Shown here piece by piece: positions 1,590 through 55,018 of a stretch of 64,000 nucleotides of DNA. The notes beneath the pieces are model-generated. The model was given only the letters and a program-made list of their open reading frames with translations, was not told the origin of the DNA and searched no databases. The position numbers and the translations under genes are program-made. Origin of the DNA: Anadara kagoshimensis (taxonomy: Eukaryota > Mollusca > Bivalvia > Arcoida > Arcidae); assembly GCA_021292105.1 (NCBI GenBank), contig CM037857.1:33302680-33366679 (forward strand), written 5' to 3'. Position 1 is the stretch's first letter. Each line of letters starts with the position of its first letter.

Positions 1590-3371
1590 AGAGTTTAATG
1601 TCCAATTATATAAGCGCAATTTCTAAACAATAGGGCGAATTGAAAGGGCGCGTTTTTAATATTTAAAACAATCATAAGGACATTCATTATTTTTTTAAAA
1701 GTTTTTTTCTGTATGAGTCAGTAGTTGCACACAAACGTTATGGTAATATTTATATATCACACGCCACACATGAGTGTATGACAAAACATTATGAAAAAAT
1801 CAAAAATTGCACATGGTACAATTAAAAAACGGGCATTTAGGACGCTGACTGAATACTGGCTATTTGGTTACCATGGTATTAGGACCAACTTGATGGGGTG
1901 GGGGTGGCATGTTTTATAAACTTTAATCAAACAAAATTGAAATATAAATAATTTTGTTATTCTTTTTTTATGGAAAAACTTTCATTTGAAACCTTCATTG
2001 AAATTTAGGACTGAAAATGCCTAAAGACGGAATCAAACAATTTTGAATATTTCTGTGAAAAATAATGTCAAATATTACATAGAATTAAATTTATTTATAT
2101 ACATGACTTACCACTGTGGTATCTGTGTTGCCAGTCGTCAGCATCTGTATCTGTTCGCTATCCAGAATCATGTCACTCCCATACACGTTTTCGTCTGTTA
2201 GTTCGTGAAATATGTTCTCATCTTGTGGCTCTTGTTTTGAGTGGTCAAATTCCTTAAAAAATTAAATTGTTCTTGTCATTTTTATATATTAAAAATTATT
2301 GTTATAGAACACAAACGTGTGTTCGTTTTTGTCCAAAACTGAGGTACGGTATGGTATTTATGATTTTGAAATTAAAATCGAAGAATAAATTATTGACCCG
2401 ACGGTTGTTAAGATTTTAGTTTCGTAAAATGTAATAAGTGAGTTTATGCATGGTAAATACTGACTACCGGTATTTAGTAGATAGGTATGTATAAAGGAGT
2501 TGAGTAATGGTGTTTAACGCCCCAGTCAAGAGTATTTTATTTCTATTGAGACGTCGCCAGCTATAGGCGAAGGTGCAGAAAATTTGCCTGTGCGTTGCGT
2601 TGATGACATTATACAGCATGAATCTTTATCGTGCCACACCTACCATGATCATGACACGGGACCTTGTTCATTCCCATTCGGAAGAACCGTGACTTTCATT
2701 TTGCAATGCCGAGTGCTTGGCGAAAGAACAGTCGCTTCCACCTTTCAAGTCTTGGGTCAAACCCGGTAGGGGTTCGAACTCACGATCGCCTGCTTACTGA
2801 GCGAGCACTCTATCAAGTGAGCTGCCGTAGTTTGTATAAAGAAGATATCCGTGCAAATCTTTGAATAAATTACATTCTAAGGAAAACGAAACTTATTTTT
2901 CTTTTTCATATTTCTAAAATTAAATCAGAATGAACATGTGCTGCTAAAATGACTTAATTATGTGCATTCAAAAACAGCACGAGTTGTTTTGTTATTAAGA
3001 ACTGTAACGTTATAATTACGTGGATAAAAAATAGAGTACAACAATGTTAAATTACGTAAAGTAGGCATAGTAACTTTAGCAACTGGAGTTGTAAATTTCT
3101 TGAATATAGACAAACGGGTTAATTCATATAGTGTTTAAAGATAGACGTATGTTTTCTTTCTAAAATAAAATTTCAATTTTAAAGGAAAAGGGTAAAGTCA
3201 TGTTAAATTTTCAAAAACCAAAACAAAAACTTAAATATAAAATCTAATGAGTGGTGACTGAAAAAAAAGTTTTTTATATTAAAATCCACATGGATATAAA
3301 TTACTAACCTCGTTTAAATTTCTTGAAAAAGCCATAGAAAATGTCAGGATCACGAAACTGAAAACATACAT
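1371..3371 (-). CDS. astacin-family zinc metalloprotease, first three coding exons (partial, continues off the left edge)
   Basis: Three phase-compatible exons on the minus strand. Exon 1 (3371-3309) encodes 21 residues starting MYVFSFVILTFSMAFS, a signal peptide, and ends at donor GTTAGT. Exon 2 (2252-2112) is 141 nt and in phase 0; it follows an AAG acceptor and ends at GTAAGT. It encodes an acidic propeptide containing VYGSDMILDSEQ, which resembles the astacin propeptide aspartate-switch region (F-E-G-D-x-x-L-T-x-E-Q). Exon 3 (1458-1371) follows a CAG acceptor, ends at GTAAGT, and encodes ERKLVTNTEHLWPFGIVPY, matching the start of the mature astacin domain (R...WPxGxVPYxI). Exons for the zinc-binding HExxHxxGFxHE helix would lie beyond position 1. 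A SINE sits in intron 1 and a GA microsatellite just upstream of exon 3 in intron 2. The family normally cleaves extracellular proteins. The exon chain is inferred from splice signals and motif order; no cDNA was available. An upstream in-frame Met near 3470 is possible but would precede the signal peptide. Confidence 0.62.
1512..1595. repeat. (GA)n microsatellite
   Basis: About 84 bp of GA repeat with a few interruptions, inside intron 2 of the astacin-like gene, about 50 bp upstream of the exon 3 acceptor. On the sense (minus) strand it is a CT tract. Confidence 0.95.
2497..2830 (-). mobile_element. tRNA-derived SINE family A, nearly full length
   Basis: Read on the minus strand, the 5' end is tRNA-like: an A-box-like block matching family consensus TAGCTCAGTTGGTAGAG and a B box from GGGGTTCGAACTCACG reversed. 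The body has a central conserved domain (tgtttaacgccccagtcaag ... gacgtcgccagctatagg). It sits in intron 1 of the astacin-like gene. Bivalve genomes carry tRNA SINEs with conserved central domains; assignment to a named family was not possible. Confidence 0.8.
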
Positions 3372-3750
3372 GATTGTCTTCTTGTGAAGAACCAACTGAT
3401 AATGGAAGTATGTAAACGTAGAGAGTGACTTTATACTCAAGGGGATTAGAAAAATCACGATGAAAGACACTCAGAATTTTAGGACTGGCGTGAACAAAAA
3501 TCTCATAAATCGGTTAATCCAAAGCCATAACAGTAGTACAAATGTATTAGTGCTGGTTTCGTGGTTCTTCATGACTGGGTTATATTTACAGTCCAACTGA
3601 TCACCTAATTACAACCCCAGTACAACTTTAGTACATATAGGTCAATGGTTCCTTACGGTTAAGGATGTATGCATAATTTCTATGAAATGAAAACGTGTAA
3701 AAGGTGAGGTGTAAGACTTCCATTTGTACACATATCCTTTTAATTCTAAA
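3372..3750. other. upstream region of the astacin-like gene
   Basis: Should contain the 5' untranslated sequence and promoter of the astacin-like gene. I see no TATA box at a convincing distance, nor any repeat. Confidence 0.4.
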
Positions 3751-3836
3751 TACAGTCAAAACTGTCTATAAAGGCCATCCAAGAAAACAAGTAAAACTGA
3801 CCTTTATAGGCAGATGGCCTTTATATGCAGGTTCAA
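3751..3836. mobile_element. pogo-like MITE family P, left half only
   Basis: Begins with the intact terminus TACAGTCAAAACTGTCTATA, follows the family consensus for about 86 bp, then stops abruptly at an A-rich junction. Confidence 0.7.
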
Positions 3837-3980
3837 AAAAAATTCTGGTCAATGTCAGTTGAGAATTCAAAATTTCATTGGGCTTATTTGGAAGAACGTT
3901 TTTCCATCACCATTTAACCTCCACTGATACACTTGTCATTATATCCCATGTACATGTAGTATGTAAGTAATACATACACC

Positions 3981-4245: not shown

Positions 4246-4439
4246 GATTTCTATCTTATTTCATCTATTGAAGCATTCATATAATCAGTATTGTGATATG
4301 CCATTTTTTCAATTTAATCATAAAATACACTTTAAAGATGGTATATGACATCACGACTAGAATAAACTATAACTAATTGGTGCGGAATCCGCGCCTAAAA
4401 TCGACCTCTAGTCACCTATATATGGGCAGTTACTATCAA

Positions 4440-4548
4440 TCTCAGTAGCTTGTGGGACACTAGCTATCCATATCTTGGTCACTCGGCAGTCGAACTTCGA
4501 CTCCTTCTTATTAGCTCAGTGTTAAACTTTCGACAGGTCTGTACTGTA
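4440..4548. mobile_element. MITE family G, right-end fragment
   Basis: Ends in GTTAAACTTTCGACAGGTCT followed by GTACTGTA, the right terminal inverted repeat of family G (ends CAGTACAGACCTGTCGAAAG, TA target). The left end is missing or unrecognisable. The stretch 4549-5078 is AT-rich with no gene or repeat that I recognise. Confidence 0.6.
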
Positions 4549-5529
4549 GCACTCATATCAAATCGTTTGAGATGGTTTGTTTGTGAAATATTGATAGAAT
4601 TTTGATGATATGTGGATAGAAACAAAGTTAATAAACTACAATATTGAAGATTTTGCATTTCCCTTTTTATGATATGCGGCACGAAATCTAGTTCATTTCC
4701 AATAACTAACAATCAATCATGCTCACTTTATACAGTCAGTGTGAGTGGTGTTTAATTTGTGTCGGCAATGATAAAACCTTATTAAACATAATTTTTATTG
4801 ATATATAACATGTATTTTGAAATAAATGAGTCAGGAAGCAACACCGACTGCTGCTAGCCAGGACCCTGTTGTTCATAGCTCCCTTAATTTAACTAGTTTG
4901 TAAATCAAATTTTGTATTTTGTGTTGTTGAAAATAATTGTCATTATCAAATTAAACATTTTAAGTCATAATTGTATTTTTATATAAAACATTTTTAATTT
5001 TAATATCATTTTGAATTTTTATTAACCATTTGGTAAAGCTAGGCATCTTTGATCGGTCCAAGTCTAGCCAACTACACGTGCAGTAAGGACATGTGGAAAG
5101 TTTAACACTGAGCTAACACACAGGGGTCGAAACTCGGGTGTCGAGTGGTCAAATTATGGCAAGTGGATGGATAGCCCTGTAACAACCCACTTTGAAAAAA
5201 TTACGCACTTTGAAAAATTTTTTCAAATCGCGTTAAATTCGGGACAAGCTCAACGCACTTTGAAAAATTTTTTCAAAGTGCGTTAAAAAATGGTTCAGCT
5301 CAACGCACTTTGAAAAAAATATTTTTTTATTTCAAAGAGCGTTAAAAAACACCTGTGACAACCCACTTTGAAAAAATTACGCACTTTGAAAAATTTTCTT
5401 CTCAACCATAAAACATCTTTGATTTCAACAATTTTCTTGGAGCTCTTCTTTACGGGAGACCCGATAATAACCAACAGGAATAAACATGCACCAGGCAGTT
5501 TGATAGACAGTACGTTCAAAATGGCAAAG

Positions 5530-5536
<7 letters not shown>

Positions 5537-5590
<54 letters not shown>
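5537..5590. repeat. (GA)n microsatellite
   Basis: A pure GA run inside the foldback element. A GT microsatellite follows about 50 bp later (5639-5680). Confidence 0.95.
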
Positions 5591-5593
<3 letters not shown>

Positions 5594-5637
5594 ATTAAAA
5601 GAAAACGAATTGCCAACTTGTCGATCTTTGTCAATTT

Positions 5638-5638
<1 letters not shown>

Positions 5639-5680
<42 letters not shown>
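5639..5680. repeat. (GT)n microsatellite
   Basis: About 21 GT units inside the foldback element. Confidence 0.95.
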
Positions 5681-5683
<3 letters not shown>

Positions 5684-5884
5684 AGCATATTCTAGTAATA
5701 TAAACAGGTCTGGAATACAACTATATAACGACATGAGAACCCTTGATAGTTAAGCAGTCAGGACGTCGGAACAATGGCAATTATAGCCGATATAACTGCA
5801 ATTGATGTAGCAGGCAAAATTAATAATGCGTTTTACTACATGAAAAGTAGGAGGTTTGGCGCGTGTGGGACCCCTATATGCAGT

Positions 5885-6035
5885 AACTACCACAAATGTA
5901 GTAACTTTTACAAATCTGAAATGTAATGAAAAAGTGTCACATTTGTAGTATCGAACCACAAATGTAGTAAGTTTGGTCAAAAATGTAGTAAATGTTTTTC
6001 ACAAATGTAGTAAAATTTTACCACAAATGCAACAA
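5885..6035. repeat. caaatgtagtaa short tandem or dispersed motif
   Basis: The 12-bp motif caaatgtagtaa recurs about six times with variable spacers within 150 bp, in the interior of the foldback element. Confidence 0.7.
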
Positions 6036-6323
6036 CTAAAAAAAAAAGATAAATTGTATTTTTTTCACAATTGGTAATATCTCGGCTATTCATGGTTCAT
6101 GCATATGTGAACAGTCATTTTCAGCTGTGACAAGGCTACTACAAGAGAGTTCCGAGATGAATTTCACGTCTCCAGGATATTTATTAGTCGCCGCTTCGAA
6201 GATATAATTTTTTGATTTGTTATTAGTCACCCCCGCCCCATCTTCGATGGGTTGAATTTTATTTATTTGTTATGGCATGTTTAATTGTTTAATGATGTAC
6301 TTTCTGTCACGGAAGATAATTTC

Positions 6324-6480
6324 CGTGTGTGAGAGATCACTGCTTCGAACCCCGGCAGGATCTGACCAAGACTTCTTGAAAATGATATTGAGAAATGAAA
6401 GCCATTGGAGTAATTTGGATAAGACCTTACAACCGATGCCCCATGTCGACGCAGATGTTACACGATAAAGTGCACTCCTT
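6324..6480 (+). mobile_element. tRNA-derived SINE family A, 5'-truncated fragment
   Basis: Plus-strand copy starting within the B box (CTTCGAACCCCGGCAGGATC), then the family body as far as the block before the central domain. It lies inside the foldback element. Confidence 0.6.
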
Positions 6481-6847
6481 AACCCTAAATTTCAAATTCC
6501 AAACAGGAAACATCTCGCATCTATATATGTTTAAATTCTTTTGTTAATAAAATTTATGAAATGTAATGTGTTATATAATGCATTGCTTTAGTAAAGTAAT
6601 TGTAATATAATGCATTACTTTCCAAAATGCAAGTAATTGTAATTAATTGTAATATAATGCTAGTTTTGCCAAAGTAATTGTAATGTAATGCATTACATGT
6701 ACATTGCAATGTAATTCGTCGCCCCATGTCTCACGCCCGCCATAAACGGTTAACCACACCACCACTTTATATCGAATGTAGGTCCAAGTCGTACCATAAT
6801 GGCAACGGGCCTTACATTTTTATTGTATTGTCTATTGTTGTGGTGGG

Positions 6848-6855
<8 letters not shown>

Positions 6856-6905
<50 letters not shown>
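6856..6905. repeat. poly-G tract, about 50 bp
   Basis: Uninterrupted run of about 50 G residues following ttttttc. It could be a true homopolymer and potential quadruplex, or a length artefact of sequencing or assembly. Confidence 0.9.
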
Positions 6906-6906
<1 letters not shown>

Positions 6907-8084
6907 AGCTTTTGGTTACTGGCATTTGTCCAATACCACAATTTTTAGACATCTTTAACACCAATTGAATATTTGTGTTTCCTCTCTTGAACATACAACT
7001 ACTACAATACTACGCATTTGAGCAGGAGATACTACTCCCGGAGCATCTGATCTCACCTCCATGTCTGTCTGGAGATCCGCGCTTCTATTCTTACATATAT
7101 TTGCAAGCTATTTAGTTTCGCGAGAAAGAAATACACATTGGTATTGTTTGTGTGGATTTATGTGTTCAATGGCCAAACTAATATATATATTCCATTTTCA
7201 AATTTGAACTAAATCGGACAACAAATAAGACTAAACCGGCCGATTATGCGTTTATAGTAACGGCGGATATCTTTGATATGGCGCGGGAACGCCAACAAAA
7301 CTTTTAATCTTTACAAACCATGGGCCTTTCACACCAAATTCGGTTCAAATTGGCCCAGTGGTTTCATTGTAAATATACATGATTTACGGTCAGGATATAT
7401 ATGGTATAGGTACTACATATCGCAAATATAGGTGTTTTCCCAAAATGCCCCCCTTGTAACCCCCTCCTCCTCACCCCGACACCCTAGGCTGCTAACCACA
7501 TTTTGAAACTGGTTTTCACATTCTGCGACATACAAACGCTAACCCTGCTATTAGTTATGTTGGTTAAAACTTGTGTTGGCTGTTGTAGATCATTCAATCA
7601 CAAATGAAAATATGCGTTGAACGAAGTGAATAAATTTAAATGTACCTTATTAACGCAGTTTTTTTTTCCAATTCGCGTTGAACTTGTCCCACATCAACAC
7701 GGTTTGAAAAACAATTCAAAGTGCGTAATTTTTTCAAAGTGGGTCGAATTTTATATGTACCTCATTAACGCACTTTGAAGTATTTTTCAAAGTGCGTTGA
7801 GCTGAACCATTTTTTAACGCACTTTGAAAAAAAATTTCAAAGTGCGTTGAGCTTGTCCTGAATTTGACGCGATTTGAAAAATTTTTTCAAAGTGCGTAAT
7901 TTTTTCAAAGTGGGTTGCTACATAGCCCCCAAGATAAACTGCCAAAAAGCGAGATATGGCTTACGAGGGATTGAGCTGTATTGCACTGATGTGTTGCCTG
8001 CCTCAGTGTTAAACTTTCGAGTGGTCTGTACTCTTTTAGACTCAAACAGACTCTATACAAGAGCAAACGAAATACAATGTTTTT

Positions 8085-8275
8085 ATATTTCACAATGTTT
8101 TACAGAAGAAAGTTCCTTATAACATCACATTTTTATACTTCACAATGTTTTACAGAAGAAAGCACATCATAACATCACATTTTTGTATTTTTACAGACGA
8201 ATGTACCCTATAACATCACATTTTTGGATTTTTACAGAGAAAGCACATCATAACATAACATTTTTGGATTTTTTC
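8085..8275. repeat. short tandem repeat of about 50-58 bp next to GPCR 3' end
   Basis: Three to four degenerate copies of a unit containing cacaatgttttacagaagaa and ataacatcacatttttg. The last copy overlaps the final codons of the GPCR, so the C-terminal end of that protein may derive from repeat sequence. Confidence 0.7.
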
Positions 8276-9338
8276 TTTTTGGTACCAACACAGAATATAT
8301 TTGATAACACTTTTTGTACTTTTTACGGTATATAGAATTAGTGAAGACATAGATTATAAAGTTGAAAGAGTTGGTACAAATCAGAAGTGTTAAAGTCAAC
8401 ATATTTACCAGTATAAGACTGTTTAAGGACATTTTATAAACATCAATGCCGGAAACGTGAAGAAACACTAATACACCAAAAGTATCGAACGGCATTGTGC
8501 ACAAAAGATATAATATACTTATAAAAACCAAAGTAATAGTTAATTTTTTTTCATATATGTACGCTATTCGACTATTTTGTCCACCAAATTCGCGAATCAT
8601 TCTTGCACTAGAAAAAACGCCACAAATGATAACAGTATTTAAAATGGACACAACCAGAACCGGAACTGCGTCAGAAACTAATATGATAAAGATAGAGTAG
8701 TTCCGAAGAAACGGGCTATTTTGGAGTTCAGCAATGGTTAATTCTACAGGAAACATATCCAGATGACAAGTTTCTATGCAGTGTAGATTTACTTTGTATG
8801 ATCTGAATAAAGGAATGGTAATTATAAAACAAAACAAACAAGCGAGTACATTTAATTTTACTCCGAAACTGCGTGTCCATACCTCTCGTATACGGAATGG
8901 AAATATTACTGCGCATGTTCTCTCTAATGTCACTAGGATAAGACACATTCGGGATATCCGTTCAGGAAACTGAACAATTCGGAATAAATGGTATCTAGAA
9001 ACGGAGAGTTGTTGAATGTATGGGTCACAATATAACTCAGAATTGTGAACGATGATATATATAAAGGTTAAGATCAGAAATGCCAAATCAGCACTTGTTA
9101 ATCCAATAAGAAGCATTGTTGTACACGTTTTAACGACATGTCGTATTAACACAACCAATGTTAAACTGTTTCCTAAAATACCGAACACAACTACTATTGG
9201 TGACACAATTTTATATAAAGCAAATATAAATGGTTTCATATCGATAACTTCCTCATACTCCATAAAATCCATCCTGTCTAAAGAATCATTAACACCAAGA
9301 TCGCTACACATCACGAAATCGGACAGATTAGAAGACAT
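8232..9338 (-). CDS. rhodopsin-class G-protein-coupled receptor, single exon, peptide-receptor-like
   Basis: Intact 368-residue receptor in one exon. The start is the ATG at 9338; the frame is open four codons further, to a GTG, which is not a credible start. Visible class A landmarks, in order: N-glycosylation site near the N-terminus; TM1 with GN (N57); TM2 LTSADLAF (D84); a Cys before TM3; TM3 ending LERTCAVIF, where Glu-Arg replaces Asp-Arg-Tyr; Cys residues in the second extracellular loop; TM6 LLCTMPFD, which keeps the CxxP pattern; TM7 NSFNFIIY, which replaces NPxxY; then a basic C-tail. This pattern resembles invertebrate FMRFamide/myosuppressin-type or orphan lophotrochozoan receptors, many of which are intronless. 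The ligand cannot be read from sequence. The receptor would sit in the plasma membrane and signal through G proteins. The start codon is separated by only some 15 bp from a huge TTG/CTG microsatellite, so the 5' untranslated region or promoter must be repeat-rich or lie beyond it. Confidence 0.88.
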   Translation of the reverse strand: MSSNLSDFVMCSDLGVNDSLDRMDFMEYEEVIDMKPFIFALYKIVSPIVVVFGILGNSLTLVVLIRHVVKTCTTMLLIGLTSADLAFLILTFIYIIVHNSELYCDPYIQQLSVSRYHLFRIVQFPERISRMCLILVTLERTCAVIFPFRIREVWTRSFGVKLNVLACLFCFIITIPLFRSYKVNLHCIETCHLDMFPVELTIAELQNSPFLRNYSIFIILVSDAVPVLVVSILNTVIICGVFSSARMIREFGGQNSRIAYIYEKKLTITLVFISILYLLCTMPFDTFGVLVFLHVSGIDVYKMSLNSLILVNMLTLTLLICTNSFNFIIYVFTNSIYRKKYKKCYQIYSVLVPKRKNPKMLCYDVLSL

Positions 9339-9352
9339 GTTGTACAACACTG

Positions 9353-9667
9353 TTGTTGTTTGTTGTTGTTGATATTGTTTCTGCTATTATCGTTGTTGTT
9401 GCTGTTGGTGTTATTGTTGTTTGTCGCTATTGTTGTTGTTGCTGCTGCTGTTGATGTTGTTGTTGCTGCTATTGTTGTTGTTGCTGCTGCTATTGATGTT
9501 GTTGCTGTTGATGTTGTTGTTGCTGCTATTGATGTTGTTGCTTTTGCTGCTATTGTTGTTGCTGTTGTTGTTGTTGCTGCTGCTATTGTTGTTGCTGTTG
9601 TTGTTGCTGTTGTTGTTGTTGCTGTTGTTGTTGTTGCTGCTGCTATTGTTGTTGCTGTTGTTGTTGC

Positions 9668-9698
<31 letters not shown>

Positions 9699-10250
9699 GC
9701 TGTTGTTGTTGTTGCTGCTATTGTTGTTGTTGCTGCTGCTATTGTTGTTGCTGTTGTTGTTGCTGTTGTTGCTGTTGTTGTTGCTGTTGTTGTTGCTGTT
9801 GTTGTTGTTGCTGCTATTGTTGTTGTTGCTGCTGCTATTGTTGTTGCTGTTGTTGTTGTTGCTGTTGTTGTTGTTGCTGCTATTGTTGTTGTTGCTGCTG
9901 CTATTGTTGTTGCTGTTGTTGTTGCTGTTGTTGCTGTTGTTGTTGCTGTTGTTGTTGCTGTTGTTGTTGTTGCTGCTATTGTTGTTGTTGCTGCTGCTAT
10001 TGTTGTTGCTGTTGTTGTTGTTGCTGTTGTTGTTGTTGCTGCTGCTATTGTTGTTGTTGCTGCTGCTATTGTTGTTGTTGTTGTTGCTGTTGTTGTTGCT
10101 GTTGTTGTTGTTGCTGCTATTGTTGTTGTTGCTGCTGCTATTGTTGTTGCTGCTATTGTTGTTGCTGTTGTTGTTGCTGTTGTTGTTGTTGCTGCTATTG
10201 ATGTTGTCGTTGCTGCTGTTGTTATTGTTGTTCATTGCTATTGTTGTTAA
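9353..10250. repeat. (TTG/CTG)n compound trinucleotide microsatellite, about 0.9 kb
   Basis: Almost 900 bp of TTG with interspersed CTG and ATT triplets, arranged in repeated blocks (ctgctgctattgttgttgct and similar), so it is a microsatellite with higher-order structure. All open frames through it (poly-Leu, poly-Val/Ala, poly-Asn/Ser) are by-products of the period of three. Confidence 0.97.
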
Positions 10251-10680
10251 GATAAATAGATTTTGATGCAGAGAATAAAACTATAGCTTATCCTGTATCC
10301 GTTAATTTGGCACAAAAATGATTAAATTTTTTAATTTGTTGCTATTGTTGGTCTCGCAACTACTATAACGGTTGTTTTTGTTGCTGTTGCTTCTGTTGTT
10401 GTTGCTACTGCTCCTGCTGGTATTGTTGTTTGCTGCTATTGTTGTTCTTGCAGCTGCTATAATGGTTGTTGTCGTTGCTGTTGCTGCTATTGTTGTGCTC
10501 GCTGCTGCTCCTGTTGTTATTGCTGTTTTTCGCTATTGTTGTTGTTGCTGCTATTTGTTGCTGTTCTTATTGTTGTTCCTTGCTATTGTTGTTAAGATAA
10601 ATAGATTTTGATGCAGAGAATAAAACTATAGCTTATCCTGTATCCGTTAATTTGACACAAAAATGATTGAATTTTAAAAT
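10237..10680. repeat. direct duplication of microsatellite flank
   Basis: The sequence gttaagataaatagattttg and the following 70 bp occur at 10246-10335 and again at about 10589-10678, almost identical. A degenerate TTG tract (10336-10588) lies between them. This points to tandem duplication of the end of the microsatellite plus its flank. Confidence 0.85.
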
Positions 10681-14517: not shown

Positions 14518-14780
14518 TGCAGGCCAATCGAAAATTTAACAGTTGGCTTACGATAAGGAGTCAAGACTCGGCTGTCGAGATAAGGATAACTAGTAGTAAA
14601 TGAAAAGCTGCCATGAGATTAGCTGCCGAATAACTGCCGATATATAACTAACGAGGTACCAAGACAAGCCGCCGATTTATTACTATTCTTTACTATACTA
14701 CACATGCTCCGCCATAAAGCAAAAGAACATTTCATGTTACAGTCGGCTAAGTGTTAAACTTTCGACAGGCCTGCACTGTA
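14518..14780. mobile_element. MITE family G, complete copy
   Basis: About 263 bp, from tgcaggccaatcgaaaattt to GTTAAACTTTCGACAGGCCT plus GCACTGTA. It has an internal inverted motif (ctcggctgtcgag). This is the unexpanded form of the element that carries the 60-bp satellite at 47 kb. Confidence 0.7.
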
Positions 14781-15258
14781 TGTATGGATTATTCATGTTT
14801 GCATACAAAATTCTTCAGAATATATAAATACATGAGAAATTGTGTCTCAGTATAGTGATTATAATTATTGTCATTATTATATATGTATTCTGTATTTTTA
14901 TTATAAGTATATGTAACGATGTATAATGTAATGATGATGTGCAATCTAATGTTCAGTTTACCAATAAAATGCATTGTATATAACTGTTTTGGGAGTAAGT
15001 TCATGTGCGGGTCGAAATATGTGAACATATTTAATTTAAACGATAGAGGGAAATAATTCATATTGTTTGCCAATTAGAGTGCCTTTAATGGCAATTTTTC
15101 TACTTTCTTACTGAATTGTGCTTAATTATTATGGATTATTTGTCAATCATAGAGCCCTTACTTTCCATTTTAATGTTGTTGGAGGGGATATGGACAGGTG
15201 TCACTGAATAGCTGCGACAGGAAAATGTTTGTAAAATTTAAAATTTAGTGGTATTTAC
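14781..15258. other. no recognisable gene
   Basis: AT-rich, with no exon or repeat apparent, except one half of a 45-bp direct repeat (15177-15225) whose partner is at 15981-16030. Confidence 0.45.
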
Positions 15259-27016: not shown

Positions 27017-27212
27017 TGGCTGAAATTAGTGCTTGGACCAAAATTTTGAAACCATTTTTTTCACACGCTTGAGAAAATAAATAAAGTAAATTTAACCAAA
27101 TTTAGCAAAGTAAATAATTTGCATGAGGGTGCATACCTTAGTTTTTGAGAAATTTCAGATATTAGCTAGCAGTAAATTAGACAACTGTATATTTCGGCCT
27201 CCTGAGTTCATG

Positions 27213-27422
27213 TACAGTACAGATCTATCGAAAGTTTAACACTTATCTAATGTATCAATACCGAATAGGCAGTTCGTTTCGGCTGCTCGTTAGCTTGGGG
27301 GCGTTTTTCGATAGCTGCTATCGGTCTTTCTACATCTTCTCACCCACTGGCTTCCCATACCTCTGCAACTTGACAGCCGAGTTTCGACCTCTTTTCGTTC
27401 CCTCGAACAGGCCTGTACTGTA
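27213..27422. mobile_element. MITE family G, complete, 210 bp
   Basis: TACAGTACAGATCTATCGAA at the left and CAGGCCTGTACTGTA at the right, with TA at both ends. The best-preserved outer ends of the family in this window. Confidence 0.75.
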
Positions 27423-27836
27423 CTAGTGGTTTAATTTTGCAGTAATGTATAAGACATTGAGATTGAGGTCAGTAGAACATATTTTACATTGAACCTTCTA
27501 GAAACTACAACTGTCTTATTTAAGTGTTTCTTTATTACCTAGCAAGAAATAAAGTCAATCTTATTTCACAGGTATCAAATAGATACGTCCAAAAATCTGA
27601 CCTCGTGAAATTGAGAAACGAAGAGAAATCTGACCATGTGAAATTTATACACGTGACAATCTTAAGCGCGTGTTATACCTGAAACCTGACTAGAAAAACA
27701 CCAAATGAATTGCGATATGTCTTACAGTATTTAGGAAAGTGAGACGCAAACATTGAACCTTATTACTCGTCTGAGGGCACATATCTCTTGATTTGAATAC
27801 CAGTAGGCCATTTTCATTAGCAAAGTGACAATCATG

Positions 27837-36542: not shown

Positions 36543-38272
36543 GAGATGACATTCTGATCATGGTATTTCAAGGGGTAATGAAAGATAGTGTGTCGCGTGC
36601 CAAATTCGATGAAGGGCGAAGCGGGGTGTTTGGTGCAAGTATTTTAGGGTTTGATGTGTTAGCGATAAGAGTCTATTTTTAAAATTTTGTATTTTTATGT
36701 TTTATAGGATTGAATATACTGGAATCTGTTAAATTGAATATACTGGAATCTGTTAAAGATCAAGCGGTGTTGTCTGGAATAACAAATGATCATCCTTTGA
36801 GTGCGTAAACAAGTAGTTTAGCACGTCATTTATTGGATTCTAGAAGTGAGAATACAGTGAAGAAATATTATTATAGTTTTAAAAAGTGGGAGCAGTTTAT
36901 TTGTGCACATAACTTTGTTTCTATTCCCGCTGCACCGATGCATGTTGCATTATATATTTCGCATTTATTGGATACATCAAACTCTTATAATGCCATTGCT
37001 TCTGCCGTATATGCAATTAAGTGGGTTCATGAAATTCATGGCAAACCGGATCCAACTGACAATAAATATGTCAAGACATTACTTGAATCTTCTAAAATGG
37101 TTAGAAAGAAAACTGTGAATAAAAAAGATCCAGTGACAGTAGAAATGCTTATTGATTTGCGTAACATTTTTGAGTGTAGTACTGACATTTTGATAGTTCG
37201 GGACTTGGCTATGATTTCGTTAGCATTTAGTGCTTTTCTTCGTTTTGATGAAATTTCTTCTCTGAAATGTTCAGACGTTTCCGTTCACGATAATTACCTG
37301 TGTTTAAAAATTAACCGCAGCAAAACAGACCAATATAGGCATGGTGATCAAGTTTTTATTAGCAAGGGAATTTCTGTAGCATGTCCTTATAATATGTTTC
37401 TTAAATAGGTATCTTTAACCGGGTTAAATTTAGAATCGGACCAGTTTTTGTTCAAACCAGTTTATCGATCAAAATCCACATGTAATTTGATTCATAAAAA
37501 CAAGCCTCTAAGTTAAACTGCAGCTAGAGACTCAATTATTAAGAGGTTAAAACTTGTCAGTAAAGGTTTGAATTTGGGTTTACATTCATTAAGATCTGGT
37601 GGGGCAGCTGCTAATTCAGATATTAATGATCGTTGTTGGAAGAGGCATGGGCGGTGGAAGACTGATTCAAGTAAAGACGGTTATATTGTGGATTCAGTTG
37701 ACAAAAGACTGCAGGTTTCACGTGTTTTAGGGTTGTAATATCCAATATTCTTATATAATATTTTCCTTTCTTTCTTTGTAAATGTTCTATAGCAGCGCAC
37801 GGCTAGTCGGCAAATGTATATTTGCGTTTTGTTTTTTTGTGTTAAAGTATGCAGAGTAGACTCTTAAATTCCCGCGGTTCGAAGTATAGTGGGAATTTGT
37901 TGTCTGCTATGTATTTGCATTAACACGGGTGTTTGTTAACTCAGGTGTGAAAAACCCGTGTTGAACACTGAGTGTTTCACTCGATGTATTATCTACTAGT
38001 AGGTCAGTTTATGGGTCGAATGTTTTTCTTTATGGACACTCATTTTTGAGTTATAGCATAATACATTGTTTAATGTTATTTTACACTGAGTATTAATTTG
38101 TCAATACTATCTTGTTTAATATTTTCTTATACCAATATTTATGTGTAATAAATGTGACCCGTTCGTGTAGCAGCGCACGGCTAGTCGGCGAAGCCCTTCA
38201 TTTTGAATTTGGCACGCGCCACACTATCTTTCATTACCCTTGAAATACCATGATCAGAAATGTCATTTCTCA
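36543..38272. mobile_element. tyrosine-recombinase element with inverted repeats of about 80 bp
   Basis: The left repeat starts gagatgacattctgatcatg. The right repeat (about 38190-38272), inverted, reads gagaaatgacatttctgatc. They match over about 80 bp, through tgaaagatagtgtg and gcgtgccaaattc. Between them lies a decayed tyrosine recombinase. A motif tagcagcgcacggctagtcg occurs twice (37790 and 38168). Recombinase-only DNA transposons (Cryptons) usually lack terminal inverted repeats, so the arrangement is unusual. Confidence 0.65.
36711..37738 (+). pseudogene. tyrosine recombinase (XerD/Crypton/DIRS-type integrase), decayed
   Basis: One frame reads from an N-terminal SAM-like region (ENTVKKYYYSFKKWEQF) through the whole catalytic domain. 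The active-site series is complete: Arg in AFLRFDEISSLKC, Lys in INRSKTDQYR, HSLR in GLHSLRSGGAA, the HGRW box in CWKRHGRWKTDSS, and a candidate nucleophile Tyr in DGYIVDS. Three in-frame stops break it: TAA at 36806, TAG at 37406, TAA at 37514. A perfect 24-bp duplication at about 36711-36757 encodes LNILESVK twice. No ATG starts the long frame. A possible acceptor (tttatag) before 36711 may mark an upstream exon. No reverse transcriptase accompanies it, which argues against an intact DIRS or Ngaro retroelement. Confidence 0.8.
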
Positions 38273-38879: not shown

Positions 38880-41800
38880 CAAATCTAATGGTGTTAATTA
38901 TTGTCATTATAATTACTGTGATTATAATCGTCGACATCACCAGACTCCTGTATCGGGATCGTTTCTTAACCAACATTTCCCTTGGCTTAAATCTGACAAT
39001 TTTGATACTTTGATAATTGTGTTAATTGTCAAGATATCCAGGAATTTAAGGTATCATTTTGACGATCAGTCAAATCTTATTACATCTATAACTTAATTTT
39101 ATTGATACTTTTATATGTAATAACATAAAAGATTGTCAAAAATTGCCAGATTTGAGTTAGGGGAAGTCTGGGTTGATGAATGATTGTGAAGATGGGACTT
39201 GCATTTTTATTATTATTATTATTATTTTTATTATTATATGGCCCTATAAAATCGTTAATCTAATATACATGTGCAGGTTAATAGTAGGTCAAATTCAGGC
39301 TGCTTGAAAACCATTTGAATGCATGAAAACAGCTGTCTTTTTTCCAAATTTATGGCTCCACTCTATTTAATTAAAGTCCCTTTAGTCCTCTTTCACTTTC
39401 TCTACACCCTTATTTTTCTTCTCTTCTGCCCTTTCTTTTTTTTCTCATTTTTGTTCTTATTATACCTCTCTAAAAATGACATAGATACACACAAAACCAA
39501 ATCTATATCCAAAGACAAATACTGCCAATGTAAGCAATTAATTAGCCACATAACACTTAAACAACATGACTGATAACCAGTTTCTGAAAATACTATCTTA
39601 TAATTGCAGAGGAATTGGTGATTTACATAAAAGAAGAGATGTTTTTAATTTTCTAAATGCTAAAGATATTAATATCTACTGTTTACAAGACGTACATTTC
39701 GGTCCAAATGATGAAAATTTTATTTCAGCCCAATGGGGTGGTAAAGTAGTATCATGTTCATACAATACTGCTGCTAGAGGAGTATGTATACTATTTAAAG
39801 ATAATTTTGAATACAAAATAAATTCACAATATAAACAGGACGATGGTAAACTCCTAGCTTTAAATATAACAGTAGAAAACCAATCATTTACATTAATAAC
39901 AATATATGGTCCAAACACTGATACCCCTTCTTTTTATAGTAAACTTAAAGAAATTGTATGTAATAAGTTTGATAACAAAATATTATAATATGCGGTGATT
40001 TTAATCTTGTTCTTAAACCAGAATTGGACACAAATAATTATAAAAACATTAATAACCCAAAAGCAAGATGTAAATTATTAGAAATAATTGATGAGACTAG
40101 TATAGTAGACCCCTTCAGATACTTGTACCCAAATTTACGGCGCAGAAAAAAACCCTTTTAAACAAGCTAGATTAGACTTCTTTTTAATAAGCAACTCTCT
40201 TATCAATAGAATTTCAAAAATAGACACTGACCCTAGCTATAGATCAGACCATTCAATGGTAATATTATCAATGAAATTAAACGAATTTTCTGTAGGCAGA
40301 GGTTTATGGAAATTTAATAACATTTTACTTGAAGATAAAAAATATCTAGAAAAAATTAAAACTACCATTTCAACAGTTAAACTCCAATATAGCGTACCAA
40401 TTTATAACTTGAAAAACATAGATACCATTGACAATAAATCAATTCAATTTACAATTTCAGATCAACTGTTCTTAGAAACCTTACTTATGGAAATTAGGGG
40501 GCAAACAATTTCTTACAGTAGTTACAGAAAAAAACAAATAAATAAAAAGGAAAAACAACTAATAGATGAAATAAATAAACTTGAAATAGATATTGATAAC
40601 ATTCAAACAAACTACGACATTATCGAAAAAAAGAAATCTGAGTTAGAAAACATAAGAAAAGAAAAACTTAAAGGTCATTTAATAAGGAAGCAAAATCTAT
40701 AGAAGGAGAAATTACTTATACTGAAGCTCTTAATACGTTAAAACATATGAAAAATAATAAAAGTCCAGGGTCTGATGGGTTTACAACAGAATTTTTTAAA
40801 TTCTTTTGGAAAGATTTAGGAGACTTTGTCGTACGTTCAATAAATTACGGGTATTAATTAGGCCAATTATCTATAACTCAAAGAGCAGGGATCATAACAT
40901 GTATACCAAAGGGGGATAAAGATAGACAATTTTTAAATAACTGCTCTAAACGTGGTATATAAAATAGCATCTGGCTGTATAGCTAATAGGTTAAAACTGG
41001 TGCTAAGTAACTTAATTTCAGAAAACCAAACCGGATTTATAAGCGGGCGATATATAGGAGAAAATATAAGATTAATATACGATATAATGGAATATACAGA
41101 ACGAAAAGATCTCCCTGGGATGTTGTTTTTGATCGATTTTCAAAAAGCATATGATAGTGTAGCCTGGCCGTTTTTATTTGAAGTTTTAAATTTCTTTAAT
41201 TTTGGGGAAAGTATAAAAAAAATGGATTAAAGTTTTCTACACAAATATCACTGCAGCAGTAATACAGAATAATTATTTATCTGATTTTTTCCAATATCAC
41301 GAGGGGTTAGACAAGGAGATCCAATTTCAAGCTATATCTTTTTACTATGTGCAGAAATATTATATATTCTAGTCGAAAATAATAAGAGTATAAAGGGAAT
41401 CACAATCGGTACCGAAGAATACAAAATATCTCAATTTGCAGATGATACCAGTTTTATTTTAGATGGATCAAAGTCTTCTCTGGAAGAAACTTTAAAAGTT
41501 CTAGATTATTTTGCAAAAATTTCTGGTCTAGATATTAACGAATCTAAATGTAAATCTGTTTGGATAGGTTGTAAAAAGTTTTGTGGGGAAACGTTTAATC
41601 ATAGGTATAAATTTGAATGTAACGCTGAATATTTTTCTTTGTTAGGTATAAATTTTTCAATAAACTTAGACGAAATAATAAATTTGAATTATGACAAAAG
41701 AATTAAGGAAATAGAATCAATCCTGAAAGTATGGTCTTCTAGGAATCTTACACCACTTGGAAGAATAACAATTATAAAACACTTGTAATATCTAAACTTA

Positions 41801-43418
41801 CTTATTTATTTTTGTCTCTCCCTAATCCCCCTGAAAAGACTATAAAGTATCTACACAGCTTATTTTTCAATTTTATATGGAATTCAAAGCCAGACAAAAT
41901 TAAACGTTCAGTAATTATTCAAAACTATTTAAACGGGGGACTGAAAATGATTGACCTTGAAAGTTTCATAAAGGCAATAAAGTTAACATGGATTCGCAGA
42001 ATAATATCACAAAAGTCTAAATTAATTAAATTAATCAAAAACATGGGATCACATCGAATAGTCTTATAACAAATACAATACCCAGTAAAGAAATCAACAA
42101 TTTTTGGCAACAAGTTTTACAAATGTTCACTGAGCTAAATGAGATAAACCGTTGTAAAACATGGTTTCAATATTTAAAATCTAGTATTTGGAATAATTCT
42201 GAGTTTACAATTGACAAGAAAATAGTATCTTCAAAACACTGGATACAACAAGGCGTTATATTTATAAGCGATCTAATGAAGAATAGTGATGAGTTTTATA
42301 CTTTTAAGGAATTACAAAAAACGCATCATTTAAAATCTAATTTTTTAGAATATTTAGGAGTAATAAATAAAGTAAAATCAAATTCAAGAAAATTTCAAAA
42401 GCAAAATAATAAACTAATACGACCATTTATTCCACATGTCTTTGAAATTATCAAAAAATCAGAATAAGGTAGCAAAGATATGTATAGTGTATTTTTCAAA
42501 TCTAAAAGATGTAAAACAGAAGAATTAAAATGGACAAGTGAATTTTTATTTGACGAAAAAGAATGGAATAATACTAATTGTCTCCCTTTTTATACAACAA
42601 AAAACACGTATTTACAATGGTTTCAATACAGAATAAACAATAAATTACTCGCCACAAACAATTATTTGAAAAAGTTACAAATAAGATTAGATGACAAATG
42701 TACCTTCTGTAAAATATTTTGTGAAACAACTACTCATTTATTCTTGGAATGCCAAATTGTAAACGATTTTTGGATGAAATTAACAAAATTAATAAAAGCA
42801 AAATGTCAAATAGACCTATACATCAATGGAAAAGAAGCTATATTTGGAATTTTGAATTTTAACAAGGAAACAAAACCTATAAATTTTTTATATATTTTAA
42901 TTAGAAATTATATTTTTAGAACGAAAGTTAAAGGAAAAACACTCAATGTTCAAGAATTTATTTCATACTATCAAGCTCATTTTATCACCCAGAACCATAT
43001 AGCAATTGAAACAAATGAAATCGAGGAGTTTGAACAATTTTGGAGACCTTTTGGACAGCTGTTCTAGTTTGTTTTTTGTTTTTTTTACATCACCCCTGTC
43101 CTCTGTCAGCATCAATTATGTCACGTGCTACTTTTGAATTTTTATAAAATAATACATGTACACTCAAATGTGCTACTTTTGAATGCATTGCTTTATAAAA
43201 AAGTCAGAGGTAGCAATGACAATTATACTACAATTATTACAAAAAAGTTTAATATTAAATTTCATATTAGAATAAATATTATTCGTTTATATTTGTATTA
43301 TTTATTTCTGCATTATTGGCTATGTTGATATATCTATTGTTTTTGTATTTTGTGTTAAATAATAATATTGATTGTGATTGTTCTATGTCAATAAAAATAT
43401 ACATTACAAAAAAAAAAA
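38720..43418 (+). mobile_element. L1/Tx1-like LINE insertion, about 4.7 kb, with target duplication and poly-A tail
   Basis: The 17-bp duplication at 38703 and 43419 flanks it. The 3' end has AATAAA at 43390 and a poly-A tail of about 13 bases. The 5' 850 bp are non-coding and contain an ATG microsatellite (about 38841-38880). The coding part occupies 39566-43067. Confidence 0.8.
39566..43067 (+). pseudogene. LINE ORF2: endonuclease, reverse transcriptase, zinc knuckle (broken)
   Basis: Domains in order: apurinic-type endonuclease starting ILSYNCRGIGDLHKRR, with CLQDVHF and, after a frameshift near 39987, ICGDFNL and later YRSDHSMV; a Lys/Glu-rich linker; RT start KNNKSPGSDGFTTEFFKFFW (about 40750); NQTGFISGRYIGENIRLIYD; LFLIDFQKAYDSV; GVRQGDPISSYIF; catalytic FADDTSFI (41434); LTPLGRITIIK; and the Cys-rich CTFCKIFCETTTHLFLEC (about 42700). 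At least seven frameshifts or stops, and an apparent deletion near 40700 between linker and RT, prevent function. The whole frame order is collinear, so this is one element and not several. Confidence 0.88.
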
Positions 43419-44639: not shown

Positions 44640-46077
44640 ATGTCTGAAAATAAAAAGATTGTATTAAATTCACAGGCAAAACAAATTGCCATCAATATTT
44701 GTTGTAAAACATTGCTTTGATGAGGCAAAACAAAAATGTCTCATAAATCCCATCAGCTGTCCCTTGGAGAGAGCAAGTGCAATGACGGGTGTGCCGAGGA
44801 GAACATTATCAATATTAAAATCGTTCGGAATAGAAACCAAACAGGCTGATAGAAAACAGAGATCAGATAAATTTTTTATTGATGATTTTGATATCTGCGT
44901 AATTAGAAGAACAATAATTAATATGTATTTAAATAAACGCGTTCTTCCAACTATAAATGCTATTCATTCGGAAATACTAATTAACAAAATTGACTTTAAG
45001 GGGAGTAAAACAATTCTCAGAAAATTGCTTAAAGAAATGGGGTTTAACTGGAAAAAATGCAGCACAAATAGAAAAATCCTTATGGAAAAACCAGATATCG
45101 TATCAAAAAGATAAAATTACCTTCGCGAAATTAAAAAACTTAGAGAAACTGGACACAACATTATTTATATGGATGAAACGTATATAAACTCTTCACACAC
45201 TGTACCCAAGTGTTGGCAGCTGGATGGGAACGGTTTAAGTGTTCCAATCGGAGCAGGTGACCGTCAGATTGTTGTTGATGCTGGTTCAAAAAAGGGTTTT
45301 GTTCCTAATGCAAGCCTTATATATAAAGCCAAGTCATCAACAGGTGATTATCACCATGAAATGAATGTTGAGAATTTCACTAAATGGCTTCGCGAAAAAT
45401 TAATTCCAAACCTTGAACCAAATTCCGTCTTGGTAGTCGATAATGCATCTTATCATAACGTCCAAGAAGACAAAAAAACCAACAACATCGTGGAAGAAAA
45501 AAGACATTCAGGAATGGCTCACAAAACACAACATTAAATTTACAGAAGACATGGTTCGCGCACAGTTACTTACAATATGCAAACAACAAATTATTCCACC
45601 TTCCTACAGAATTGATTATATATTAAGAGAACATGGACATAAAATTTTAAGATTACCACCTTATCATGCAGACTTAAATCCTATAGATTAATTTGGGCTG
45701 ATCTAAAATCATATGTTGCTTCACAAAATTTAAAATTTAAACTTTCGGACGTGCAACAACTTGCAGAAAAACAATTGAAAGACATATCGACAGAAAAATG
45801 GAAAAGGTGTGTTGAACACGTAAAGAAAATAGAATCCGATTACTGGAAAAATGACATCGCAGTCGATGAAGAAATAGAGAAATTTGTAATAAACTTGGAC
45901 GATACCGATTCCAGCGACGAAGACACAGACACAGCAACAGAAGAAGAAGAGGATGAGGAAGAAGAAACATCTACAGTGACGGCCGACGAAGAATCAACCA
46001 TTTCAGAAGAAGATACGACTGATACAGCTGACGAAATTTTTACTGTTACCAACTTGCATGGAGCTGCACAATTATAA
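44640..46077 (+). pseudogene. IS630/Tc1-mariner superfamily DDE transposase, DD82E/Sailor-like, broken
   Basis: The likely original start is the ATG at 44640 (MSENKKIVLNSQAKQIAIN). A frameshift near 44712 leads to the helix-turn-helix region (ASAMTGVPRRTLSILKSFG), then a stop at 45112. The DDE core follows: first Asp in IIYMDETYINSSH (45172), second Asp in VLVVDNASYHN (45439), a one-base slip in an A run near 45472, and third acidic residue in HADLNPID (45686), then a slip and WADLKSYVAS. The C-tail is strongly acidic (Asp/Glu). Spacing between second and third acidic residues is 81 or 82 depending on how the slip is resolved; that matches the long-spaced DD82E Sailor group better than Tc1 or mariner. 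It lies near the 3' end of the 38565-46546 transposon. Confidence 0.8.
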
Positions 46078-46954: not shown

Positions 46955-49897
46955 ATAAAACTGTCGAAAGTTTAACACTGAACAAACAAAAACAGTCGAA
47001 GTCCGGCTGTCGATTGTCCGAAATATGAACAACTAGTGACCAGACGAGAGACAGATAGTAGCTATAGATAATCTATCGAGATAAGACTAACGACGACCGA
47101 GATGAGTTGTCGATTGGTTAGGTTATTGTTAAACTTTCGACTAAAGCTAACGACGACCGAGATGAGTTGTCGATTGGTTAGGTTATTGATAAACTTTCGA
47201 CTAAAGCTAAAGACGACCGAGGTGAGTTGTTGATTGGTTAGGTTATTGTTTAACTTTCGACTAGAGCTAACGACGACCGAGATGAGTTGTCGATTGGTTA
47301 GGTTATTGTTTAACTTTCGACTAAGCTAACGACGACCGAGATGAGTTGTCGATTGGTTAGGTTATTGTTTAACTTTCGACTAAAGCTAACGACGACCGAG
47401 GTGAGTTGTCATTGGTTAGGTTATTGTTAACTTTCGACTAAAGCTAACGACGACCGAGGTGAGTTGTTGATTGGTTAGGTTATTGTAAACTTTCGACTAA
47501 AGCTAACGACACCGAGGTGAGTTGTCGATTGGTTAGGTTATTGTTAACTTTCGACTAAAGCTAACGACGACCGAGGTGAGTTGTCGATTGGTTAGGTTAT
47601 TGTTAAACTTTCGACTAAAGCTAACGACGACCGAGATGAGTTGTTGATTGGTTATTTATTGTAAACTTTCGACTAAAGCTAACGACGACCGAGATGAGTT
47701 GTCGATTGGTTAGGTTATTGTTAAACTTTCGACTAAAGCTAACGACGACCGAGATGAGTTGTTGATTGGTTAGGTTATTGTTTAAACTTTCGACTAGCTA
47801 ACGACGACCGAGATGAGTTGTCGATTGGTTAGGTTATTGTTAAACTTTCGACTAAAGCTAACGACGACCGAGATGAGTTGTCGATTGGTTAGGTTATTGT
47901 TAAACTTTCGACTAAAGCTAACGACGACCGAGATGAGTTGTCGATTGGTTAGGTTTATTGTTAAACTTCGACTAAGCTAACGACGACCGAGGAGTTGTTG
48001 ATTGGTTAGGTTATTGTTAAACTTTCGACTAAAGCTAACGACGACCGAGATGAGTTGTTGATTGGTTAGGTTATTGTTTAAACTTTCGACTAAAGCTAAC
48101 GACGACCGAGGAGTTGTTGATTGGTTAGGTTATTGTTAAACTTTCGACTAAAAGCTAACGACGACCGAGGTGAGTTGTTGATTGGTTAGGTTATTGTTAA
48201 ACTTTCGACTAAAGCTAACGACGACCGAGATGAGTTGTTGATTGGTTAGGTTATTGTTTAACTTTCGACTAAAGCTAACGACGACCGAGATGAGTTGTTG
48301 ATTGGTTAGGTTATTGTTAAACTTTCGACTAAAGCTAACGACGACCGAGGTGAGTTGTCATTGGTTAGGTTATTGTTAAACTTTCGACTAAAGCTAACGA
48401 CGACCGAGGTGAGTTGTTGATTGGTTAGGTTATTGTTTAACTTTCGACTAAAGCTAACGACGACCGAGATGAGTTGTTGATTGGTTAGGTTATTGTTAAA
48501 CTTTCGACTAAAGCTAACGACGACCGAGGTGAGTTGTCAATTGGTTAGGTTATTGTTAAACTTTCGACTAAAGCTAACGACGACCGAGATGAGTTGTTGA
48601 TTGGTTAGGTTATTGTTTAACTTTCGACTAAAGCTAACGACGACCGAGGTGAGTTGTTGATTGGTTAGGTTATTGTTTAACTTTCGACTAAAGCTAACGA
48701 CGACCGAGATGAGTTGTTGATTGGTTAGGTTATTGTTTAACTTTCGACTAAAGCTAACGACGACCGAGGTGAGTTGTTGATTGGTTAGGTTATTGTTTAA
48801 CTTTCGACTAAAGCTAACGACGACCGAGATTTTGTTGATTGGTTAGGTTATTGTTTAACTTTCGACTAAAGCTAACGACGACCGAGGTGAGTTGTTGATT
48901 GGTTAGGTTATTGTTTAACTTTCGACTAAAGCTAACGACGACCGAGATGAGTTGTCGATTGGTTAGGTTATTGTTAAACTTTCGACTAAAGCTAACGACG
49001 ACCGAGGTGAGTTGTTGATTGGTTAGGTTATTGATAAACTTTCGACTAAAGCTAACGACGACCGAGATGAGTTGTTGATTGGTTAGGTTATTGTTAAACT
49101 TTCGACTAAAGCTAACGACGACCGAGGTGAGTTGTTGATTGGTTAGGTTATTGTTAAACTTCGACTAAAGCTAACGACGACCGAGGTAGTTGTTGATTGG
49201 TTAGGTTATCTGTTAAACTTTCGACTAAAGCTAACGACGACCGAGATGAGTTGTTGATTGGTTAGGTTATTGTTAAACTTTCGACTAAAGCTAACGACGA
49301 CCGAGATGAGTTTTGATTGGTTAGGTTATTGTTTAACTTTCGACTAAAGCTAACGACGACCGAGATGAGTTGTTGATTGGTTAGGTTATTGTTTAACTTT
49401 CGACTAAAGCTAACGACGACCGAGTGAGTTGTTGATTGGTTAGGTTATTGTTAAACTTTCGACTAAAGCTAACGACGACCGAGGTGAGTTGTCAATTGGT
49501 TAGGTTATTGTTAAACTTTCGACTAAAGCTAACGACGACCGAGGTGAGTTGTTGATTGGTTAGGTTATTGTTAAACTTTCGACTAAAGCTAACGACGACC
49601 GAGGTGAGTTGTTGATTGGTTAGGTTATTGTTTAACTTTCGACTAGAGCTAACGACGACCGAGATGAGTTGTTGATTGGTTAGGTTATTGTTAAACTTTC
49701 GACTAAAGCTAACGACGACCGAGATGAGTTGTTGATTGGTTAGGTTATTGTTTAACTTTCGACTAAAGCTAACGACGACCGAGATGAGTTGTTGATTGGT
49801 TAGCTTATTGTTTAACTTTCGACTAAAGCTAAAGACGACCGAGGTGAGTTGTTGATTGGTTAGGTTATTGATAAACTTTCGACAGGTTTGTACTGTA
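46955..49897. mobile_element. MITE family G expanded into a satellite
   Basis: The left flank has actgtcgaaagtttaacact and gtccggctgtcga; the right flank ends aaactttcgacaggtttgta then ctgta, the normal right end of the MITE. Nearly all the 2.9 kb between is tandem repeat that replaces the normal roughly 200-bp interior. Confidence 0.85.
47087..49882. repeat. 60-bp satellite, about 46 monomers, with a dimeric higher-order stretch
   Basis: Monomer: taacgacgaccgagatgagt / tgttgattggttaggttatt / gttaaactttcgactaaagc. Variants gaggt/gagat, tgtcga/tgttga and gttaaac/gtttaac are scattered, but between 48361 and 49140 thirteen consecutive monomers alternate gaggt and gagat, a 120-bp dimer. The part gttaaactttcgac is the inner piece of the MITE terminal repeat. 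Confidence 0.95.
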
Positions 49898-54893: not shown

Positions 54894-55018
54894 TTTGATT
54901 GGAAATGTTGATCTAAATGGTCACTGAAATATTCAATACATATTCATTTATTTACATTCCATAGCTAGACGTCACTAGCATGAGTTGTTATGTAAGCGAA
55001 AAACATGTAAACACATGA

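Follow-up and report, generated by a model that had tools for sequence, protein, structure and literature searches.

A foldback element with palindromic arms and a 6-bp target-site duplication, very probably a non-autonomous DNA transposon, in the bivalve Anadara kagoshimensis

Introduction

What kind of element is bracketed by long inverted arms tiled with palindromes, and which enzyme would move it? The question is raised by a 2745-bp foldback element found at 5178-7922 of a 64,000-nucleotide stretch of the Anadara kagoshimensis genome (GenBank assembly GCA_021292105.1, contig CM037857.1, positions 33,302,680 to 33,366,679 of the forward strand), which is referred to here as the window. The original prediction, made from the letters of this stretch alone, described a foldback element inserted with a 6-bp duplication into an older miniature inverted-repeat transposable element (MITE), and regarded it as a poor fit to the common animal superfamilies. 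Here, we follow up this description in the window itself and in the assembly to which it belongs. We conclude that the element is very probably a non-autonomous DNA transposon of the cut-and-paste type with a foldback structure; its assignment to the foldback class, with no enzyme among the copies inspected, is firm. Which transposase would drive it is weighed among several candidates below.

The element and its insertion site

The element is flanked on both sides by the hexamer TAGCCC, and its termini read TGTAACAACCC on the left and GGGTTGCTACA on the right (Table 1). The longest inverted pair joins 5178-5317 to 7783-7922, that is, 140 nt that are 96% complementary. The insertion interrupts an older inverted-repeat MITE of about 200 bp, which extends over 5081-8033 with the insert included. 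When this host is rejoined at TAGCCC, it aligns across the junction to another copy at 14520-14790 of the window, on the reverse strand (64% over 129 positions, E-value 3e-9). The host copies at 4370-4560, 27205-27425 and 55000-55185 each match one half or the other, with no alignment spanning the junction. As predicted, the window thus holds a foldback element that was inserted, with a 6-bp duplication, into an older MITE. The halves of the MITE had also been presented as independent proof of the borders, which holds for the rejoined alignment and fails at the level of the single base: since the older MITE has diverged, the join is clear yet inexact by itself, and it is the duplication that fixes the position.

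Genome-wide copies share their ends and a 6-bp duplication

All genome-wide searches were run on the window's own assembly (1.115 Gb in 36 contigs). With the left arm as query, scoring 40 of 767 candidates yielded 139 matches, of which the best 40 are 98-100% identical. The 34-nt end, with up to three mismatches allowed, was found at 901 places in the genome (457 forward and 444 reverse, inner copies counted), and the reversed pattern used as a control at none. An estimate of about 450 elements from these 901 ends was rejected as too high, since the pattern, with one mismatch, also picks up the inner left end. Because of these inner matches, and because the window element alone yields three of the pattern's matches, we infer a family of about 300 elements.

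Both ends were read in 26 copies: the window element, the 20 best arm matches, two copies chosen by length, two with an end spacing of 131-132 bp, and one on contig C9. The same terminal base was found at both ends in all 26, with a family end consensus of TGTARCAACCC..GGGTTGYTACA, from which the copy L035 departs with TGTGAC at one end. In 25 of the 26 copies, the flanking duplication is perfect and measures exactly 6 bp; no duplication of 5 or 7 bp was found among 25 copies, and flanks paired crosswise between copies as a control matched at 6 bp in 0 of 600 cases. An apparent exception, L034, has an extra right arm behind the first, and disappears once the outermost end is taken, which gives TACCAC on both sides. 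The original prediction had staked its case on other copies neither ending at different positions nor lacking the 6-bp duplication, and the copies read bear it out.

The flanks of the insertions differ between copies, and the duplicated hexamer itself has a preferred composition. Its two middle positions are both G or C in 24 of the 26 copies (23 of 25, plus the C9 copy with GTGGTG), a middle that occurs in 11.7% of the hexamers of the window (P 4e-18 for 20 of the first 21 copies). Outside the target hexamer, there is only a weak tendency towards A/T. As expected for an animal repeat, exact end patterns of 31 and 22 nt had no match in viral contigs, and the exact 31-nt pattern had none in a prokaryote genome collection.

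Arms built from palindromes

The arms are built on a repeat unit of 50 bp, in which a 31-nt palindrome (ACGCACTTTGAAAAA.TTTTTTCAAAGTGCGT) is combined with a spacer of 19 nt. Counting as palindromes those of about 31 nt (lengths 30-32) with at least 13 paired positions, both arms together contain five (the raw count is six, as the one at 7767/7768 scores double). In 200 dinucleotide shuffles of the arms, the mean count was 0.055 and the highest was 1. Applied to the rest of the window, this criterion picks out about five further places, which are scattered. The predicted composition of the arms out of short palindromes is thus confirmed. Folded as single-stranded DNA, the two arms have energies of -40.9 and -47.3 kcal/mol, where 100 simple shuffles of each averaged -13.5 and -15.4 kcal/mol. 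Also, the motif CGCACTTTGAAAA, allowing at most one mismatch, has 13 occurrences in the window, every one of them within the element; 0.16 would be expected.

Each arm additionally holds an inner copy of its own end. On the left, 5352-5397 repeats 5176-5221 at 98% over 46 nt, and such an inner copy lies 175-178 nt inward of the terminus in 26 of 30 first-pass loci. The two nested end copies per arm that had been predicted are therefore present as far as a core of about 37 nt is concerned; in full length they are not, given the shortened inner copy on the right (Table 1).

Table 1. Features of the foldback element and its host MITE, in window positions
Feature	Position	Strand	Remarks
Host MITE, left part (CAGTAAGGACATGTGGAAAGTTTAACACTGAG...)	5081-5171	+	Outer limit judged by eye
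Target-site duplication TAGCCC, left copy	5172-5177		Perfect 6 bp
Outer left end	5178-5202	+	25 nt; the same 25 nt terminate the 131/132-bp copies
Palindrome, left arm	5203-5233		31 nt, 13/15 pairs
Palindrome, left arm	5253-5283		31 nt, 15/15 pairs
Third palindrome, left arm	5303-5343		Longer, less perfect; seen by fold, under the palindrome-count threshold
Inner copy of left end (TGTGACAACCC...)	5354-5397	+	Complete, 98% to outer end
Interior	5398-7630		No long frames; filler varying from copy to copy, simple repeats and a poly-G tract
Short open stretch (NISAIHGSCICEQSFSAVTRLL...)	6076-6204	+	43 amino acids; by eye like hAT C-terminal motif
Inner end copy, right arm	7707-7744	-	92%, outermost seven bases missing
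Palindrome, right arm	7767-7798
Palindrome, right arm	7817-7847
Palindrome, right arm	7867-7897
Outer right end (..GGGTTGCTACA)	7898-7922	-
Target-site duplication TAGCCC, right copy	7923-7928
Host MITE, right part (...CTCAGTGTTAAACTTTCGAGTGGTCTGTACT)	7929-8033	+	Outer limit judged by eye

Size classes, minimal copies and age

Lengths were surveyed on the first 100 of the 901 end places, all with zero mismatches, by pairing neighbouring ends that face inward at less than 20 kb, which left 30 places unpaired. The resulting 35 pairs measure 131, 131, 132, 513 and 1393 bp, followed by 15 pairs at 2290-2838 bp, two of 3.3 kb, eight at 4211-4812 bp, and the longest ones at 5436, 6325, 8473, 12866 and 18475 bp. 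The copies actually read span 131 bp to 8.5 kb. Three of the longer pairs, of 4379-4381 bp and with TGTAGC at both ends, lie at C1 29440623, C2 24774437 and C3 35473636, and one of them is the copy L051; they form a uniform longer subfamily.

At the other extreme, one of the three pairs of 131-132 bp sits within a longer pair. The two minimal copies that were read (132 and 131 bp) are made of the 25-nt end, a 31-nt palindrome, the 19-nt spacer, a second palindrome (32 nt in one of them) and the opposite end, with the duplications TGTCAC and CACCAC. Both are short and non-coding, with inverted ends and a target duplication, as is characteristic of a MITE. Copies of 131 bp either moved in this form or lost sequence between their palindromes once inserted, two histories that the duplication alone cannot separate. 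If they moved in this form, about 65 bp per end would be enough in cis.

Over 21 copies (L035 entered reversed), the mean identity was 96.6% for the 5' arms and 94.3% for the 3' arms. Around 5850-6480 of the window element (616-642 positions compared), 12 copies are 85.9-97.7% identical to it, and the 8.5-kb copy L052 is 82.3% identical. Judged by such identities, the copies of the family are young compared with the host MITE.

Regarding the filler, about 50 consecutive G occupy 6856-6905 of the window element, where other copies have G-rich tracts of other lengths, and L052 contains, at 2318-3846 and along with other filler, a tandem array that repeats every 145 bp at about 96% identity. On C2, between 14.99 and 15.47 Mb, ends are clustered over half a megabase together with two hAT frames, similar to each other and 594 and 601 amino acids long; this cluster may be a local segmental duplication that carried the copies along.

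The search for a transposase

The original prediction had also suggested looking for a long copy with a transposase gene between the same ends. None was found, the list of ends searched being partial, so that an autonomous copy elsewhere could have been missed. In a survey of 20 copies for frames of at least 55 amino acids (frames rich in simple repeats excluded; L040, the start of L041 and the last portion of L039 outside the count), no long frame was seen, the longest among those listed having 147 amino acids (L035). The longest frame of both L051 (4.4 kb) and L052 (8.5 kb) has 103 amino acids, and eight of the surveyed frames gave nothing in Pfam up to an E-value of 1. Variant ends were found at 64 places; the 1.2 kb inside one of them, on C14, appears to be a repeat of about 41 bp, judged by the spacing of its frames.

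A short open stretch of the interior lies at 6076-6204, where CEQSFSAVTRLL has, by eye, the look of a hAT C-terminal motif. Three versions of this stretch gave no Pfam match up to an E-value of 10, and the window's own version had a single, unrelated match below the cut-off (E-value 0.19). As a genome query, it returned 545 first-look candidates; among the 150 scored, the longest open frame has 127 amino acids, and eight contain a stop. In 14 copies, its variable sites number 9, 8 and 8 by codon position, and its divergence of 0.036 compares with 0.037-0.069 for four stretches around it. The idea that selection maintains this stretch was rejected: no sign of it is visible, and the stretch evolves like its neighbourhood.

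Candidate transposase domains were then compared in position with a list of ends consisting of 100 of the 901 places (zero mismatches, from C1 to C3:47.75 Mb) and the 64 variant ends; the region from C1 to C3:47.75 Mb holds 30 hAT matches out of 150 and 21 rva_4 places out of 89. For Dimer_Tnp_hAT (150 scored of 724 candidates), two matches were within 30 kb of the 164 listed ends, against 1.3 expected, with none between listed ends, and the single inward-facing match near a listed end was 21.6 kb away. For rva_4, which we take to be the IS3EU-type core, 102 matches were obtained from 150 scored, and 89 places were compared once second pieces of one locus had been excluded. Only one of the 89 was within 30 kb of the 143 listed element places, against 0.7 expected, and none was between listed ends. 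An rva_4 match on C9, 6 kb from a listed end, lies outside the element there, whose far end at 21007144 is still 3 kb short of it.

Comparison with known systems

Duplications of 6 bp have been published for hAT6 (PMC12730594), IS3EU and GingerRoot (PMC10045372), and Dada (6-7 bp; PMC3706591), and the length found here is for this reason not unprecedented. IS3EU, where the duplication is usually 6 bp, has TA..TA termini, in contrast to the TGTAR..YTACA of the present family, whereas GingerRoot has mostly TA..TA and occasionally TG..CA termini; IS481EU has TNT..AYA or TGT..ACA termini, with duplications of about 4, 15 or 25 bp (PMC10045372). In the part searched, these ends enclosed neither a hAT transposase nor an rva_4 core. 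The TGTNR ends of Ginger1 and Ginger2 are found here, and their duplication of 4 bp (5 bp in TDD) is not (PMC2836005). Dada lacks terminal inverted repeats and targets multicopy small RNA genes (PMC3706591), unlike the long inverted ends and scattered, differing targets of the present family. The TG..CA ends thus argue against the published form of IS3EU, and the combination of long inverted ends and scattered targets argues against Dada. For the terminal sequences of hAT6, the available parts of PMC12220107, PMC3942097 and PMC9004415 contained nothing.

By build rather than by sequence, foldback elements of Drosophila are also close to the family. Tetris, from Drosophila virilis, is likewise named a foldback transposon; it lives in another host, and is reported to have supplied a satellite with building blocks. 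Galileo, a foldback-like member of the P superfamily, differs from the present family in that affiliation and in its 7-8 bp duplication. Its ends are, as here, unusually long, inverted and internally repetitive, and contain several transposase binding sites (PMC3688188).

The termini agree with TGTNR and the length with hAT6 or GingerRoot, and in the comparison made here no single described group could be matched to both. The predicted misfit to common animal superfamilies can be maintained in part, with IS3EU and Dada failing and no group shown to own these ends; the duplication length, already published elsewhere, lends it nothing.

Which enzyme would drive the family

A tentative proposal, and on balance an improbable one, is that a hAT6 transposase drives the family and that the interior open stretch is its fossil. 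The published 6-bp duplications of hAT6, the hAT-like look of CEQSFSAVTRLL and the 545 first-look candidates of this stretch all point that way, and the same stretch, with no hAT match in Pfam and no sign of selection, speaks against it, as do hAT matches near listed ends that are no commoner than chance. Moreover, hAT ends usually start with YA, and those of the element start with TG. It is the termini that instead suggest an integrase-type transposase from the IS3EU/GingerRoot/Ginger side, since TGTAA and TGTAG agree with the TGTNR rule of Ginger and Gypsy (PMC2836005) and since GingerRoot combines 6-bp duplications with occasional TG..CA termini. This origin appears similarly doubtful, because Ginger1 and animal Ginger2 duplicate 4 bp and TDD-4/5 duplicate 5 bp (PMC2836005), and because rva_4, the only integrase core searched, lies near listed element places about as often as by chance, its nearest match being outside the element.

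Unlikelier than either is a DNA transposon superfamily that has escaped description, one that would join TGTAR..YTACA ends to duplications of 6 bp and a target centred on G/C. Within the open-licence literature, this combination was not met in the published descriptions compared, and neither a paper describing the arm or 11-nt end sequences nor any description of the family (foldbacks in bivalves or molluscs, 6-bp foldbacks, end letters) was found. Against this, a transposase missing from a partial search is weak evidence, and the separation from known groups is based on published descriptions, outside Repbase and Dfam. The fuller version of this proposal, in which the palindromes on a 50-bp repeat would form a transposase binding array and the 131-bp all-hairpin element its minimal substrate, is likewise one we regard as unlikely. 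An assembly artefact or chance inverted repeat, in turn, has the low-complexity tracts of the interior as its sole argument; it is refuted by the copies read, of which 25 out of 26, each at a site of its own, have matching ends and a perfect 6-bp duplication, and by 901 end places against none in the control, leaving it a negligible probability.

A model for the foldback family

The reading as a non-autonomous cut-and-paste transposon of the foldback class is carried by long, internally repetitive inverted ends, and by fixed ends and a duplication of fixed length across copies. According to this reading, a transposase made elsewhere would act in trans on the ends, where the palindromes would probably serve as its paired binding sites; they are modelled as such on the binding sites held by the repetitive long ends of Galileo. 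The enzyme would then excise the element and reinsert it with a 6-bp stagger. The arms would have grown through tandem duplication of the 50-bp unit, whereas the interiors would be filler carried along. Several points weigh against this account. The sample comprises 26 of some hundreds of copies, 20 of them chosen by their likeness to the left arm of the window element, and one of the 26, L038, has an imperfect duplication with five of six positions matching. Furthermore, no autonomous partner was found, so the transposase step is something we infer, and the binding role of the palindromes is a proposal by analogy.

Other features of the window

At 46966-49894, a tandem array of units of about 60 bp bears part of the end of the host MITE (GTTATTGTTAAACTTTC), and is apparently a satellite grown from a MITE end. 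A frame of 199 amino acids at 36809-37408 has a weak match, below the cut-off, to Phage_integrase (tyrosine recombinase; E-value 9e-4), and is possibly Crypton- or DIRS-like. Pieces of a retroelement of the long interspersed nuclear element (LINE) type lie at 39554-43067, with endonuclease and reverse transcriptase matches in two frames. A Tc1/mariner-like transposase is spread over three open frames at 44668-46077, with a DDE_3 match in the middle frame and none in the first. At 8235-9383 and 9282-10280 lie a rhodopsin-type receptor frame of 383 amino acids (7tm_1, E-value 1.9e-9) and a trinucleotide repeat of about 900 bp, which the upstream end of the frame overlaps. Rfam gave no matches across the window.

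Significance

With many young copies that share their ends and a single duplication length, and that range from 8.5 kb down to an all-hairpin 131 bp, the family represents a clean natural experiment. It supplies a target logo and a direct way towards a transposase that leaves 6-bp duplications and acts on TG..CA ends. Once found, this enzyme, be it hAT6, GingerRoot-like or new, would reveal the superfamily behind the foldback arms of this genome.
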